DNA of 34,598 nucleotides from IMG/VR virus record IMGVR_UViG_3300047564_004306, positions 1 through 34,598 of that record; one strand, given 5' to 3'. Of this stretch, positions 17,501 through 30,015 are shown piece after piece (the first letter of the stretch is position 1; each line of letters begins with the position of its first letter). Below the pieces are notes generated by a model, which saw only the letters and a program-made list of their open reading frames with translations, was not told the origin of the DNA and did no database searches. The stretch is from a virus. A program made the position numbers and the translations under genes.

Positions 17501-20500
17501 TATGCTAGAGGATATTATGAAACCTCTGATACTGGAGATGTAACTACTGCAAGTTCTTATGATGGATTTAACTATGGAACAGAAATCCAGTCTGTAAATG
17601 AATTTAGAAACACTGATATATTAGATGCCAGACCTAGAGTTAGCAACTTTGTAGTTTCTTCTGGATCAAGATCACCATTTGAATTTGATGGGAGATCATT
17701 TACTGGAGGAAATCATAGTACAAGTTATGTTTTAGCGTCGGATGAATCCGAAACACTATCATTTACTTATTATCTACCAAGAATTGATAGGATTTATTTA
17801 ACAAAAGAAGGAATATTCCAATTAAAAGTTGGAGAAGCTGCAGATAATCCAAAACTTCCAGAAGAAGTTTCAAATGGATTAAACATTGCAAATATTGCAT
17901 TACCACCATATCTTTATGATGTAAAGGACGCTGAAGTAACTTTTGTTGACCATAAGAGATATCAAATGAGTGATATCTTTAGATTAGAAAATAGAATCAA
18001 AAATCTTGAGTATTACACCAGTTTGTCTCTTCTTGAGAATAACACAGCAAACCTGTTTATTTCCGATTCTGTAGGACTTAACAGATTCAAGTCAGGATTT
18101 TTAATTGATAATTTCTCATCTGTAGGTGTTCAAGATAATACAGTAGGTGTAAAGAACAGTTTAGATCTACAAAATGGACATCTAAGACCATCTCACTATA
18201 CAACTACATTAAATCTTGAACTTGGATCAGATGCAATTGCTGGTATTGGTACAACTACAAATGCAAGTCAAGATAAAAATTATTTGAGCAATATACTTGG
18301 AACTAATATCAGAAAATCAGGAAGTGTTCTAAGTTTAGATTATGAAGATGTTCTTTGGGTAGAGCAACCTTTTGCAACAAGAATTGAAAACGTAACTCCT
18401 TATCTCGTAAAAACTTGGGAAGGATCTATTGAACTTGAACCAACTGTTGATGTTTGGATTGATGTAAATCGTCTTGAACTCAGAGACGTTAGAATGGAAG
18501 GTTCATTCCTTGGCGTTGCTGAAGCATTAAGAGCGGAAGTTACCGACCAAGCAGATGGATCAAGACTAGGTGTAAGTCCAATTATTTGGAATTCTTGGGA
18601 AACCAATAATATTCGTCAGGATCTTGGACTCACTTTAAGTGCAAGTATGTCTTCATCCTCTAGCACTACTAATGCTGGTGGTGGTAGACAAAATGTAGCA
18701 ACAACAACAAGTATTAATATTGGAGGAAGTGTAAGTTTAACAACGAACTTAGACCAAGCAAGAACTGGTGTTCAGCATACTGTAAGAGAGCAAATTGACA
18801 CAGAATCTCTTGGAGATAGAATTGTAAGCAGAAATATTATTCAATTTATGCGTTCCAGAAACATTCAGTTTACTGGTAGACGCTTAAAACCAAATACTCA
18901 GGTATATGGATTCTTTGATAGTGTTGACGTTAACAATTTCTGTACTCCAAAACTACTTGAAGTCGCAATGAATTCCGGAACTTTCCAAGTTGGTGAGAAT
19001 ATTATTGGTGTTATGCCAACAGCAGAGATTGTTGACGGTTTTGATCAAAGCACACTTCCTTATATTTCTTTCCGTCTTGCTGTTTCAAATCATAAGTATG
19101 GTCCATACGATAATCCTACCGATTTCTATGTTCAGAATCCATACGACAGAGGAAATAATATCCCCGCAAATTATTCTTCAACTAGTACAATATTAAATAT
19201 TGATACTTTTAGTTTATCAAATGAAAGACAACCTGAATTCTGGGGTTGGGCAAGAACTGGAATGATCTTGAGAGGTCAGAGTAGTGGTGCAGTTGCAATA
19301 GTTTCTAATCTTAGATTAGTAACTGATAACATTGGAACAGTGATTGGTTCTTATCTTGTTCCTGATGGTAATATTCCAGGTAATCCAGCATTTGAAACTG
19401 GTAGAACTGTCTTTAGATTAACAAATAGTTCTACTAATACCAGAATTGGTGGTGTTGTAACAACATCTGCTGAAGAGATCTTCTATTCTCAAGGTGATAT
19501 TGATAATACTCAAGAGGTTACACTTTCACTTAGAAATGCAAGGGTAGAGCATGAAGATTTTGAGCAGACCAGAACCTTAACTGCATCATCTGTAGCAACA
19601 GCAAATGCAGGAGCAACTACATCATCTTCAACTCAGATTCAATCTCAAGTTATAAACAACATTACCAATGTAACGAATGTAACTGAAAATATAACCAATA
19701 TAACAAATGTAACTGAAAACATTGTACAAGAACAAGAAAGACGAGATCCACTTGCACAATCATTCTATGTTGATGATGCCACTGGAATTTTTGTTACTAA
19801 ATTAAACATATATTTTAGAACTAAAGATCCAGTACTACCAGTATATTGTCAACTTAGAGAAATTAAAGTTGGTCTTCCAACCTTAAAAATACTTCCATTC
19901 TCTGAAGTTGAAATCGCTCCAGATCAAGTTAATGTATCTGAAGATGCATCGGTTCCTACAACAATTGAATTTGATTCACCAATTTATTTGAATGGACAAA
20001 CTGAATATGCGATTGTTCTTCTATCCGACTCTACAGAATATACTGCTTGGATTTCTAGATTGGGAGAACCAGATGTAACTTCTGCTGCAAATGAAGCAGG
20101 TCAAATTCTTGTTTCTGCTCAGCCAATTCTTGGATCACTCTTTAAATCACAGAATGCTTCAAGTTGGGATGCAAGTCAGTATGAGGATCTTAAGTTCCAA
20201 CTCTTTAGAGCAAGTTTCACTTCAAGTGGTTCAGTTCAGTTCTTTAATCCAACTTTACCAACAACAGGTATTGATGTATTAAGAAAAGATCCATTTGATA
20301 TAGATTCTAAGACAATTAGAATTGGAATTGGCACAACAGTACAAGATCCAAACCTCACCAACGGTAATACCATTATTCAATTGCAATCAAATGCAACTGG
20401 TATTCTAGTTGGAACTGCGGGAACAATATCTGGACTATCAATTACTAATTCTGGTATTGGTTATACTCCAAGTGCTGGTGCAGTTACATATAACAATTTA

Positions 20501-25920: not shown

Positions 25921-26348
25921 AGATGACAAAAAAATTTGATGACCTAAATGAAACTTTTAATGTTTCTGGCGAAATAGTAGAAACAAAAGTAGAAAGTGTA
26001 GATAAAATTGAAAAAGTTTCATCCTCCATTGAAGATGTAAAAAAAGATTATGAATACACAAGAGGAAATCTTTATTCTCTGATTGAAAAAGGTCAAGAAG
26101 CAATCAATGGTATTCTTGAGTTGGCACAAGAAAGTGAAATGCCTAGAGCATATGAAGTTGCTGGACAATTAATTAAAAATGTAGCAGATGCAACTGATAA
26201 ACTTATGGATCTTCAGAAAAAACTGAAAGATCTTGACGAAGACAAGAGTATAAAAGGTCCAACTAATGTTACTAATGCACTATTTGTAGGATCTACTGCA
26301 GAACTAGCAAAACTTCTTAAAAAGCAGTCAACTGATGAAAACGTTTAA
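25917..26348 (+). CDS. gp16: Small terminase subunit gp16
   Basis: The protein has 143 residues, against 164 in T4 gp16. The middle is a helical, coiled-coil-like region (DYEYTRGNLYSLIEKGQEAI, PRAYEVAGQLIKNVADATDK, LMDLQKKLKDLDED), followed by TNVTNALFVGSTAELAKLL, which corresponds to T4 QNATVFMGSPTDLMDEI. The small terminase binds DNA and regulates the motor gp17. The start at 25917 overlaps the gp15 stop as ATGA; a second ATG at 25923 is a possible alternative. In T4 the gene lies directly before gene 17, but here four genes lie between. Its last 14 bases overlap the next small gene. Confidence 0.88.
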   Translation: MKMTKKFDDLNETFNVSGEIVETKVESVDKIEKVSSSIEDVKKDYEYTRGNLYSLIEKGQEAINGILELAQESEMPRAYEVAGQLIKNVADATDKLMDLQKKLKDLDEDKSIKGPTNVTNALFVGSTAELAKLLKKQSTDENV

Positions 26349-26490
26349 ACAATTTCAAGAAGAGTGGAGTAATAAATATAAAAAGAGTATTGATTGCTCA
26401 AATCCAAAAGGATTTTCTCAACGCGCTCATTGTGCGGCAAGAAAGAAAAGAGCAAAAGGTGAAGAAACTAAATCCAAACCAGTTGAATGA
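26335..26490 (+). CDS. 51-residue basic Cys-containing protein with CTS-like N-terminus
   Basis: The frame from ATG 26335 to TGA 26488-26490 encodes 51 residues. It overlaps the gp16 end by 14 bases and the next gene by four (ATGA). The first residues, MKTFKQFQEEW, resemble the T4 internal-protein targeting sequence MKTYQEFIAE, but the Ile/Leu expected three residues before the cut is Gln here. The rest, DCSNPKGFSQRAHCAARKKR, is a short basic two-Cys module of a type found in marine phage proteins; the following gene is built of similar modules. No strong ribosome site is seen, so translation may depend on coupling. The function is unknown; a head-packaged or DNA-binding peptide is a guess. 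Confidence 0.6.
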   Translation: MKTFKQFQEEWSNKYKKSIDCSNPKGFSQRAHCAARKKRAKGEETKSKPVE

Positions 26491-28418
26491 AGAATCCAAA
26501 GTTCTCACACAAAACACCACATCTAAAAGGGAAACAACATCAGTTAGATCCCAATTTAGATCTTAAACAATTAGTTCATCATGCAGCGGTTCAATACGTT
26601 GATCGTGATGCTGATGGTGATGTGGATGTTTATGATAATCCCAAGAAAAGGACACCTGACGAAAATCCAGTAGATATTAATGTTGGTACTGGATCTAGAA
26701 AACTTCTTGCTAAGCAAAAAGGAGAACTTAAGCATACTAGAACTGGTATGGCATATGAGGATCTTCGCAAATGGTTTGGAACTGGTGGAGAAGGTGGTGT
26801 TGATGGTGGAGGATGGGATAGATATAATTCCGAAGGGGAGAGAATTGGCAAATGTGCTCGTGAACCAGGAGAAGCAAAACCAAAATGCTTATCAAAAGAA
26901 AAAGCAGCAGAAATGTCTAAGGATGAAATTGCTGCAGCAGTAAGAAGAAAAAGAGAAAAAGATCCAGTAGCAGATCGTCCAGGAAAAGGAGGAAAACCAA
27001 AAATGGTATCCAATAAAATAGAAGAGCAATCCAGTGAAGAAAGATATTGTCCAATGTGCAGAAAGAGAGAAAAGAGAATGGATTGTTCTTACGGACCTGC
27101 TATGTGGGATGCAGTAACAATTGGTGGAATCAAAGAATCCAAAAAACCAGAACCAGATCATGAGCACTCAATGGCAAGATCTGAACTTGCAACTATTGAG
27201 AAAGCAGTTAAACGCCTTAAGTCAAAAATGAAAGGTGAGGGAAATATTGAAGCATGGGTACAATCAAAGATTACTAAAGCAGCAGATTATATTGATGCGG
27301 CAGCAGATTATATTGATAGTGGAGAACATAATGTTCAAGGATCAATGGACGAAGCAAAAGATCCTTGTTGGAAAGGATATAAGCAAGAGGGTCTGAAAAA
27401 GAAAGGAACCAGAATGGTTCCTAATTGTGTTCCTGTAGAATCAGTAAGTTTTGAAATTGGTTCTGATCATAGAAGTGCTCAAAAACAAGCAAAGATTAGA
27501 AATCTTGCAAAATCAACAACTAATTCTGGAGAAAAGGAAGCAGCAAAAAGTAAATTAAAAGGTCCATCTTTACCTTTATCTGATGAATATATAATGGAAA
27601 AAAATGTTCCTACGAATCCAAAACTTTGGGCAAAATGGAAGGCAAAGGCAAAAGCAAAATTTGATGTCTATCCTTCTGCATATGCAAATGGTTGGGCAGC
27701 AAAAGGATATAAATCTGAAGGTGGTGGTTGGAAGTCAGTATCAGAGGAAACAATTGAAGATTTAAACGGAAATTCTTTCGTTGAAGTCATTGATTTAATC
27801 AAACCAGATCCAATTGTTTCTGAGGAAAATGGAAAAGTATGTGAGGTTTGTGGAAAGTCTCCATGCGAATGCTCACCAAGAAGACCGATGGGTGGCAGTT
27901 CAGCAAAACCTGGTCTAGATAAAAATTATGTAAAACCAATGGGCGAGTCAGTGAGAATACCAGCAAAAACTGGAAATATTATTCTTGTCACTCTGACATG
28001 GAGAGGAAAGTACTATATGATGAAATTATTCTTTCCACAAACAACCAAACCAAGTCGTCAAGAAGTTCAGGATCAAATTTCAAAGGTTTATCCGGGATCT
28101 AAAGTTCAATCATTTTATATTTCAGACATTAAACCAGGTGAACAGTTTCTTCAGGTAGAAGATTGGCAAAAAGTTAATCGCCAAGACAAGACTGATGGAT
28201 TAAGTCAGAAAGCAGTTAATGCTTATCGCAGAGAAAATCCAGGGTCAAAACTTCAAACTGCAGTCACTGAAAAGAATCCAGAGGGAAAGAGAGCTGCACG
28301 CCGTAAGTCCTTCTGTTCTAGAATGAGTGGTATGAAAAAGAGACTAACTTCTTCAGAAACTGCTAGAGATCCAGATTCAAGAATCAACAAAGCTCTTCGT
28401 CGTTGGAACTGTAACTAA
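26487..28418 (+). CDS. Mosaic protein of short cationic modules, unknown function
   Basis: The protein has 643 residues and starts by ATGA overlap with the 51-residue gene. In order it shows an EF-hand or dockerin-like loop at residues 39-50 (DRDADGDVDVYD); a GGGWDRYNSEGERIGKC and KPKCLSKEKAAEMSKDEI block (about 108-150); CxxC at C188-C191; a helical segment with ITKAADYIDAAADYIDSGE (about 259-282); CWKGYKQEG-VPNCVP (about 294-317); KFDVYPSAYANGWAAKGYK (about 390-410); a Cys cluster at C452, C455, C460 and C462; a beta domain at about 500-555 shared with the next gene; and a C-terminal KRAARRKSFCSRMSGMKK to RRWNC block. Such modules recur in marine phage proteins of unknown role. Its place between the terminase genes suggests a head or packaging link, which is inferred. 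No membrane segment is seen. Confidence 0.75.
   Translation: MKNPKFSHKTPHLKGKQHQLDPNLDLKQLVHHAAVQYVDRDADGDVDVYDNPKKRTPDENPVDINVGTGSRKLLAKQKGELKHTRTGMAYEDLRKWFGTGGEGGVDGGGWDRYNSEGERIGKCAREPGEAKPKCLSKEKAAEMSKDEIAAAVRRKREKDPVADRPGKGGKPKMVSNKIEEQSSEERYCPMCRKREKRMDCSYGPAMWDAVTIGGIKESKKPEPDHEHSMARSELATIEKAVKRLKSKMKGEGNIEAWVQSKITKAADYIDAAADYIDSGEHNVQGSMDEAKDPCWKGYKQEGLKKKGTRMVPNCVPVESVSFEIGSDHRSAQKQAKIRNLAKSTTNSGEKEAAKSKLKGPSLPLSDEYIMEKNVPTNPKLWAKWKAKAKAKFDVYPSAYANGWAAKGYKSEGGGWKSVSEETIEDLNGNSFVEVIDLIKPDPIVSEENGKVCEVCGKSPCECSPRRPMGGSSAKPGLDKNYVKPMGESVRIPAKTGNIILVTLTWRGKYYMMKLFFPQTTKPSRQEVQDQISKVYPGSKVQSFYISDIKPGEQFLQVEDWQKVNRQDKTDGLSQKAVNAYRRENPGSKLQTAVTEKNPEGKRAARRKSFCSRMSGMKKRLTSSETARDPDSRINKALRRWNCN
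26601..26636 (+). other. EF-hand or dockerin-like calcium loop
   Basis: Residues 39-50 of the mosaic protein read DRDADGDVDVYD, with acidic residues at loop positions 1, 3, 5, 9 and 12, Gly at 6 and Val at 8. This fits a calcium-binding loop, with Asp rather than Glu in the last position. Calcium binding is inferred. Confidence 0.5.
27279..27317 (+). repeat. 21-base-period tandem repeat in the mosaic protein
   Basis: The 18 bases GCAGCAGATTATATTGAT occur at 27279-27296 and again at 27300-27317, separated by GCG. They encode AADYIDA-AADYID, extending a helix by one heptad. Exact DNA identity suggests a recent duplication. Confidence 0.8.
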
Positions 28419-28419
28419 A

Positions 28420-28734
28420 ATGAAATCATTTAAAGAATTCCTGTCAGAAAGTGTAAATATTGCAGGAGATTTCAATGGAAATCTTTATATGAATGGTTCA
28501 AATTCTCAACCAGAACCTGTTGGAGAATCTTTTTTTGCTGATGTGGTTTGGGAAGGAAAAATTTATCGTATGGAAGTTGAAGGTAGTATGATGTCAAAAA
28601 CTGAACTTGCAGAAGAACTCCAAAGTGAGTATCCAGGTGCGATAGTTCACAACATTTATCCTTCAACAAATCAAGTATCCAGAGTTAAAAACGTAAAAAG
28701 ATATCAACCAGAAAGATTATCGTGGAGTGATTGA
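28420..28734 (+). CDS. 104-residue protein with capsid-targeting-like N-terminus
   Basis: The first ten residues, MKSFKEFLSE, match the pattern of the T4 capsid-targeting sequence MKTYQEFIAE of internal head proteins. The L-S-E then Ser fits the (I/L)xE cleavage rule of prohead protease gp21. Residues about 36-90 (VVWEGKIYRMEVEG, ELAEELQSEYPGAIVHNIY) form a small alpha/beta domain that is also found near the C-terminus of the preceding gene. The gene starts one base after that gene's stop and lacks a strong ribosome site, suggesting coupling. I infer a protein carried inside the head and perhaps injected; this has not been shown. Such starts are fairly common in marine T4-like phages, so the targeting role needs testing. 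Confidence 0.72.
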   Translation: MKSFKEFLSESVNIAGDFNGNLYMNGSNSQPEPVGESFFADVVWEGKIYRMEVEGSMMSKTELAEELQSEYPGAIVHNIYPSTNQVSRVKNVKRYQPERLSWSD

Positions 28735-28737
28735 TTA

Positions 28738-30015
28738 ATGGCACAGTGGAATAAAAATGAGCAGGATTTTCTAAATCAAGAGAGAAGTCTCTTTGAGGTC
28801 TTTAATATTGCAGATCACTGGGGAAACCAGACGGACTGGAGACCTCAATTCACCAACAACAATCGTCTCAAAGTTGCTCCTTTCCAAACAGTATTCTTTA
28901 ATACTTTCCAGTATGGTAAAGAGACTGATGTATGGGATGAAAGAATAGTTGGAGTTGGAACCGCAATTCACAATGCAGCATCAAGTAATGTGATTATGCA
29001 AGTTGGATCTACTGCTGGTAGCAAAATTGTTCGTCAAACCAAGAATGTGATGAGATACATTCCTGGTAGAGGTGCAACACTCGCATTCGCAATTCGTCTT
29101 ACTACACCACAGGTAGGTATTCGCAGAAGATTTGGATTGTTTGATGAAAACAACGGTGTTTATTTTGAGGATGATGGTGGAACATATTCTTATGTACTAC
29201 GTAGTAGTGTAACTGGAATTGTTACAGAAACCAGAGTATACAGAGACGATTGGAATGGTGAGAAGTTTGATGGAAATGGTTGGACTGGAGTAACTGCAGA
29301 TCCAACAAAACAACAAATGATTTCCATTAACTATGAATGGTATGGTGCTGGCATTGTGCAATTTGCTTGGTTGATGAAGAATGAGACTGTTGCATCTCAT
29401 ACTTTTGAGAACTCAAATACCAATCCAGGAGTGTGGTGTTCTACTCCATTCTTACCAATTAGACTTGAGATTGAAAATGTAACTGGTGTTGCAGGAAATC
29501 ATTACCTATACCAGGGTTCTAATTCTCTTATTCAGGAAGGAGAACCAGAAAAACTTGGAACTCTTTTGAGTATATCCAATCCCATCACAGGGACAACGAT
29601 GTCAGTGTCAAATACATTCTACCCAATTATAAGTCTTCGTCTAAAGTCGAATAACCTAACTGGTGTAATGCTTTTGAGATCATTACAGGCAGCAACCAAT
29701 GATAATACGAATGTGTATTGGAAACTTCTACAAAATGCAACATTGACTGGAGGAACTTGGGTGGACCATCCAGATCCAAACTCCTTTATGCAATACAATA
29801 TAACTCAAACAGCAGTATCTGGTGGAAGCGATCTTTTGAGTGGTTTTGTGATTGGTGGTAGTGGTGGGACTCTAGTTGATCTTGATGTTAGAGCAGCACT
29901 TCAGTTAGGTAGAAGTGGTATTGGAACAATCAGTGATACTTATACTCTTGCTTGTGCAAGTCCTAATAGTAACAAAGCAGCACTTGCAGTTCTGAACTGG
30001 ATTGAGCAGAGGTAA
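28738..30015 (+). CDS. Probable virion structural protein
   Basis: The protein has 425 residues and lies tightly between the cassette and gp17. It begins with a polar segment (WNKNEQDFLNQERSLFEVF), then LKVAPFQTVFFNTFQYGKET, a block with IVRQTKNVMRYIPGRG, and a beta region with RFGLFDENNGVYFEDDGG and YEWYGAGIVQFAW. Similar proteins occur in large phages as virion or tail-associated proteins of unknown role; I recall the pattern but cannot name a defined family. The C-terminal part has Gly/Ser/Thr-rich strands (FVIGGSGGTLVDL). There are no signal peptide or catalytic motifs. GGAG at 28723-28726 precedes the start. Its place beside the terminase gene says little about location in the virion. 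Confidence 0.75.
   Translation: MAQWNKNEQDFLNQERSLFEVFNIADHWGNQTDWRPQFTNNNRLKVAPFQTVFFNTFQYGKETDVWDERIVGVGTAIHNAASSNVIMQVGSTAGSKIVRQTKNVMRYIPGRGATLAFAIRLTTPQVGIRRRFGLFDENNGVYFEDDGGTYSYVLRSSVTGIVTETRVYRDDWNGEKFDGNGWTGVTADPTKQQMISINYEWYGAGIVQFAWLMKNETVASHTFENSNTNPGVWCSTPFLPIRLEIENVTGVAGNHYLYQGSNSLIQEGEPEKLGTLLSISNPITGTTMSVSNTFYPIISLRLKSNNLTGVMLLRSLQAATNDNTNVYWKLLQNATLTGGTWVDHPDPNSFMQYNITQTAVSGGSDLLSGFVIGGSGGTLVDLDVRAALQLGRSGIGTISDTYTLACASPNSNKAALAVLNWIEQR

Follow-up and report, generated by a model that had tools for sequence, protein, structure and literature searches.

An ORF of 104 codons in a T4-like cyanophage fragment begins with ten residues, MKSFKEFLSE, that most probably (we put it at roughly three in four) represent a capsid targeting sequence (CTS) of the T4 type, which would be removed by a gp21-type prohead protease. 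This function is the most likely one because the tag is not expected by chance, its functional residues are kept, its cleavage box matches that of the capsid proteins, the same tag is carried by virion proteins of other cyanophages, and it is spread over many families in IMG/VR. The CTS itself is already known from T4, and the present ORF would add a cyanophage case; although a review had suggested that T4-like phages use the CTS generally, no paper applying it to cyanophages was found in the literature searched. The more interesting result would be that many enzymes carried in cyanophage virions bear a single T4-type label, which we did not find stated in that literature.

The tagged ORF, its neighbours and its family

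The analysed stretch (34.6 kb, 34,598 bp; here the window) comes from a virus record and shows the late-gene order of T4-like cyanophages. The tagged ORF (28420–28734, plus strand, 104 aa) starts with the ATG at 28420, its stop ends at 28734, and its N-terminus reads MKSFKEFLSESVNIAGDFNGN (MKSFKEFLSE, then Ser). It is located in the gp16–gp17 head block, where a gp13-like to gp16-like block is followed by a DUF6321 protein, the ORF, a virion structural protein, and terminase and sheath genes; neighbours were named from homologues in S-SRM01, S-CAM9, S-SKS1 and others, and from PHROGs. The DUF6321 protein (26487–28418, plus strand, 643 aa) ends one base before the ATG at 28420, and its counterpart at the equivalent position in S-SCSM1 is annotated as a virion protein. 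The downstream gene (28738–30015, plus strand) encodes the virion structural protein (phrog_1645, head and packaging), whose counterpart at the equivalent position in S-SZBM1 was detected in virions. The ORF itself belongs to phrog_1742, of unknown function in PHROGs, and no Pfam family was found for it. Its family was identified by tblastn in 135 phage records, every one a cyanophage; orthologues were found only in T4-like cyanophages, with many more in IMG/VR.

The T4 sequence MKTYQEFIAE, read directly from ipII (at 65718) and ipIII (at 66415) of T4, was aligned with codons 1–10 of the ORF (28420–28449, plus strand). M, K, E, F and E are identical at positions 1, 2, 6, 7 and 10, and the remaining pairs are S/T, F/Y, K/Q, L/I and S/A, so the position-by-position match claimed by the sequence-only reading was borne out. 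In T4, residues 4 and 7 mainly drive targeting, and residues 8 and 10 processing (PMC9026906). The ATG and the motif were kept in all 86 orthologues checked, and among 62 distinct orthologues position 4 was always F or Y, position 7 always F and position 10 always E, with L (44), I (17) or M (1) at position 8 and variable residues at positions 5 and 6. Since residues 11–23 are as conserved as the tag, conservation within the family does not by itself single out the tag, and it was rejected as a proof of targeting. In one orthologue (L283), MKNFKEFINESKAETLSE is followed by the predicted cut and then SVNIAGDF; here a tag, MKNFKEFINE, is combined with a second box, LSE/SVNI, at the old junction, as if the targeting tag and the cutting site were separable.

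The mature protein would have 94 residues, as the sequence-only reading had calculated for a cut after E10, with a predicted mass of 10.6 kDa and an acidic pI of 4.77. The first 34 residues were predicted to be disordered by AlphaFold2, which placed a beta-beta-alpha-beta domain at residues 37–81 (28528–28662, plus strand; pLDDT about 83–88 over residues 41–80). This domain is strongly conserved, and it contains a second invariant L-x-E, L63-A64-E65, inside the predicted helix. A paralogue of the same small domain is present in the upstream DUF6321 protein at residues about 488–547 (27948–28127). Fold search of a viral library returned the protein's own family and DUF6321 virion proteins, while the best PDB matches were T7 Gp2 (Z 5.0, 49 residues, 2.1 Å) and phi29 p6 (Z 4.3). 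We drew no function from these likenesses because small folds that are common often give Z values of this size; should the protein be an injected effector, the weak likeness to Gp2, as a lead, would make RNA polymerase a conceivable target.

The motif and its cleavage box in related phages

To set the chance level, MK.[FYW]..F..E was searched at Met codons followed by at least 40 open codons, with the expectation taken from shuffled N-termini. Two matches were found in the window, against 0.005 expected. T4 gave three matches (0.04 expected), only IPII, IPIII and gp61.1, the last of which (L103:1467–1631, corresponding to T4 18966–19130) is annotated as hypothetical and starts with MKTFKEFIKE. 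Six of the seven cyanophages scanned had one to four matches each, including S-SRM01 (4 against 0.04 expected) and S-CAM9 (3 against 0.035), and S-PM2 had none (0.03 expected). A looser motif was not clearly above chance and was dropped.

A second tag-like ORF in the window (26335–26490, plus strand), absent from the sequence-only reading, encodes a basic 51-aa protein that starts with MKTFKQFQEEW. In its tag, MKTFKQFQEE, F4 and F7 are present, and it has no L/I-x-E box because position 8 is Q; judging from these residues, the protein may be targeted yet uncut. The tag is kept in close relatives and is absent from the same module in others.

For the ORF at 28420–28734, the predicted cleavage junction is Glu10/Ser11 (28447–28452, plus strand), following the L-x-E rule of gp21-type prohead proteases and the capsid boxes of relatives. 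The contig stops short of gp20–gp23, the region of the protease and the capsid protein, and the search for (I/L)xE sites in capsid proteins, suggested by the sequence-only reading, was run on relatives, where the box was found. With cyanophage cut positions inferred from T4, in which the capsid propeptide ends in SFLTE/AEIGG, the propeptide of the S-SKS1 capsid protein ends in EFLSE/APTN, the same five residues that precede Ser11 in the ORF. The corresponding ends are RSFLSE/ASPTN in S-SRM01, SFLAE/APTN in S-SCSM1 and GILTE/AAPT in S-SZBM1. Peptidase_S77 (gp21 family, PF03420) was above the cut-off in 9 of 9 records searched, among them all eight cyanophage relatives examined. Two further ORFs (L205:3268–3621 and L300:7825–8541) start with MKSFKEFIKE followed by APTNS/TPTNS, like a mature capsid start, and the former also has GPVAGFD; in both, the tag is joined to a capsid-protein-like segment.

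Tagged proteins in virions and in IMG/VR

We then applied a wider rule, [KR]x0-1[FYLW]xxF[ILMV]xE at any start codon, to cyanophages with virion proteomes. Four proteins matched in the S-CREM2 genome (a SAM hydrolase, gp13, an APH-like kinase and a cytidylyltransferase), and all four are in its virion proteome of 52 proteins (PMC10665884); the overlap (hypergeometric p = 0.003, 219 genes) is only indicative, because one of these N-termini was already known when the rule was broadened. Two matches each were found in S-SCSM1 and S-SZBM1: a virion-detected protein, NMNAT in the former and the cytidylyltransferase in the latter, and the orthologue of our ORF, which was detected in neither. No tail or baseplate protein was among the wider-rule matches at annotated genes of these three phages. 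The S-SM1 cytidylyltransferase, which is present in virions (PMC3037559), starts with MKKFSAFLNEA. The tagged, virion-detected kinase, SAM hydrolase, cytidylyltransferase and NMNAT are encoded at L187:10579–12846, L187:3837–5081, L189:20609–21469, L101:38820–40049 and L363:18257–19420. It is likely that T4-type tags explain the virion presence of these cyanophage enzymes. The authors of the cyanophage virion proteomes had been unable to say whether NMNAT and kinases were carried or were contaminants; a shared T4-type tag offers a directly testable mechanism and argues against contamination.

The Cas9-like virion protein of S-CREM2 (L187:7704–10313) has an internal version of the tag, RFASFMAE/A, at residues 18–25. 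In S-SKS1 (HQ633071.1, 72006–73234), the cytidylyltransferase gene is split, with the tag and the N-terminus in one frame and the rest in another, which is either a frameshift or a sequencing error.

The orthologues of our ORF were missing from two virion proteomes. S-SCSM1_30 is annotated as hypothetical and is not among the S-SCSM1 virion proteins, both its neighbours being marked as such; these marks (about 48 proteins in the record versus 45 in the paper) are near the MS list and not identical to it. Likewise, S-SZBM1_191 is not in the S-SZBM1 virion list of 30 proteins, which includes an 87-aa protein. Proteins of 61–93 aa were listed in the proteomes lacking the orthologues, and several fully tryptic peptides are predicted from the mature sequence of S-SZBM1_191. 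Either few copies of the protein are therefore present in virions or it disappears during maturation, and the amount of the mature 94-residue form in finished virions may be low or nil. Thus, the sequence-only reading of a T4-like CTS with a gp21-type box gained strong support from orthologue conservation, MS-detected tagged cargo, capsid boxes and the protease of relatives, whereas its processed protein inside the finished head, still plausible, so far meets some contrary evidence. No tag was found on SSZBM1_195, a small protein that is abundant in virions and encoded in a similar place.

A scan of IMG/VR DNA with MKxFx(E/Q)F(I/L/M/F)xE gave at least 120 stretches; they are a non-random sample and therefore show breadth and specificity, not frequency. 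Among the matches listed, 116 ORFs reached a length of 40 aa or more and 108 of them had the motif at the first ATG, and 115 of 120 loci also encoded T4- or cyanophage-like proteins. After removal of 12 residues, the tagged ORFs among these matches formed 47 clusters, about 47 unrelated families, including nucleotidyltransferase, HAD hydrolase, GNAT, methyltransferase, HNH and DUF6267; at position 3, left free in the search, about 38 of the 47 had T or S, and A was enriched directly after the tag glutamate. A control pattern, with F7 replaced by G, gave 38 stretches in the whole IMG/VR collection, with the first ATG used in 3 of 33 and T4-like loci in 7 of 38. One tagged protein of 138 aa (L246:3736–4149), with no Pfam match, has a YHGT motif recalling ADP-ribosyltransferases.

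Possible role of the tag and known systems

In the proposed mechanism, F4 and F7 would bind the protein to the scaffold core of the prohead during head assembly, so that it would be built into the prohead, and a gp21-family protease would then cut after L-S-E10 to leave the 94-residue mature protein. This protein would either remain in a few copies in the head and be delivered with the DNA, or be largely lost during maturation. We infer targeting, cleavage and delivery for this protein, and the tag, which is also carried by enzymes found inside related phage particles, probably marks virion-carried cargo.

It is possible, though clearly the less favoured outcome, that the tag targets the prohead core and that the protein serves there in the core or in assembly, being destroyed or leaving in maturation, with no delivery to the host. 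Most of T4 gp22, gp67 and gp68 is lost in this way. The absence of the orthologues from two virion proteomes and the position of the gene among packaging and head genes fit such a role, and the invariant L63-A64-E65 could permit further cutting; this site, however, lies in a predicted helix, the strong conservation of the domain would be odd for merely discarded material, and other tagged proteins stay in virions. An unlikely explanation is that the segment is a docking helix for another partner, such as a host factor or a part of the tail or baseplate, and that its likeness to the T4 CTS comes only from both being short amphipathic segments. The motif is indeed short, its proposed packaging role in cyanophages is read from sequence, and the neighbours include neck and tail-completion functions. 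Yet the wider rule picked out no tail or baseplate protein at annotated genes of S-CREM2, S-SCSM1 and S-SZBM1, the tagged virion proteins of known function are enzymes, T4 IPII and IPIII are likewise picked up by the motif search, and the capsid protein has an identical cleavage box. It is very improbable that the N-terminus reflects chance or shared ancestry alone, as a conserved part of the protein with no targeting role. The equal conservation of residues 11–23 would agree with this, but the tag's occurrence at first ATGs on about 47 otherwise unrelated families of T4-like phages, among the matches listed, and the loss of both first-ATG use and T4-like context in the F7-to-G control, argue against it.

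Beyond this single ORF, we consider it somewhat better than an even chance that M-K-(S/T)-F-x-(E/Q)-F-(I/L/M)-x-E serves aquatic T4-like phages in general as a cargo label, by which dozens of unrelated proteins would be loaded into the head for injection, with the protein described here as one such effector. If this is true, the cargo would comprise NMNAT, kinase, SAM hydrolase, HAD hydrolase, acetyltransferase, methyltransferase, HNH nuclease and unknowns, and effectors would therefore be predictable from sequence. With the tag as a search pattern, candidates for injected proteins can be listed from the genome of any T4-like phage.

The closest known systems are T4 IPII and IPIII, which share with our protein its small size, a ten-residue N-terminal tag with an aromatic residue at 4, F7, I/L at 8 and E10, and a gp21-family protease, seen for our ORF in relatives. 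Unlike them, the mature part is unrelated in sequence and acidic rather than basic, the gene is located between gp16 and gp17 and not near e/ipIII, and the orthologues were missed in two virion proteomes; the CTS proteins described for T-evens are basic. The cyanophage virion NMNAT and cytidylyltransferase (T4-GC190) carry the same tag (MKSFLQFLKEA, MKKFSAFLNEA, MRFRQFIIEA) in the same phage family, whereas they are large, repeatedly detected in virions, and show no similarity to our protein past the tag. T4 IPI has a longer propeptide, described as similar to the IPIII tag, so that tag and cleavage site can lie apart, as in the orthologue with the second box; unlike IPI, no anti-restriction function is suggested for our protein. 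In P1, the N-terminal region of DarB directs a reporter into the head (PMC9024508), and the N-terminal targeting is alike, although the phage is unrelated and no shared sequence was shown.
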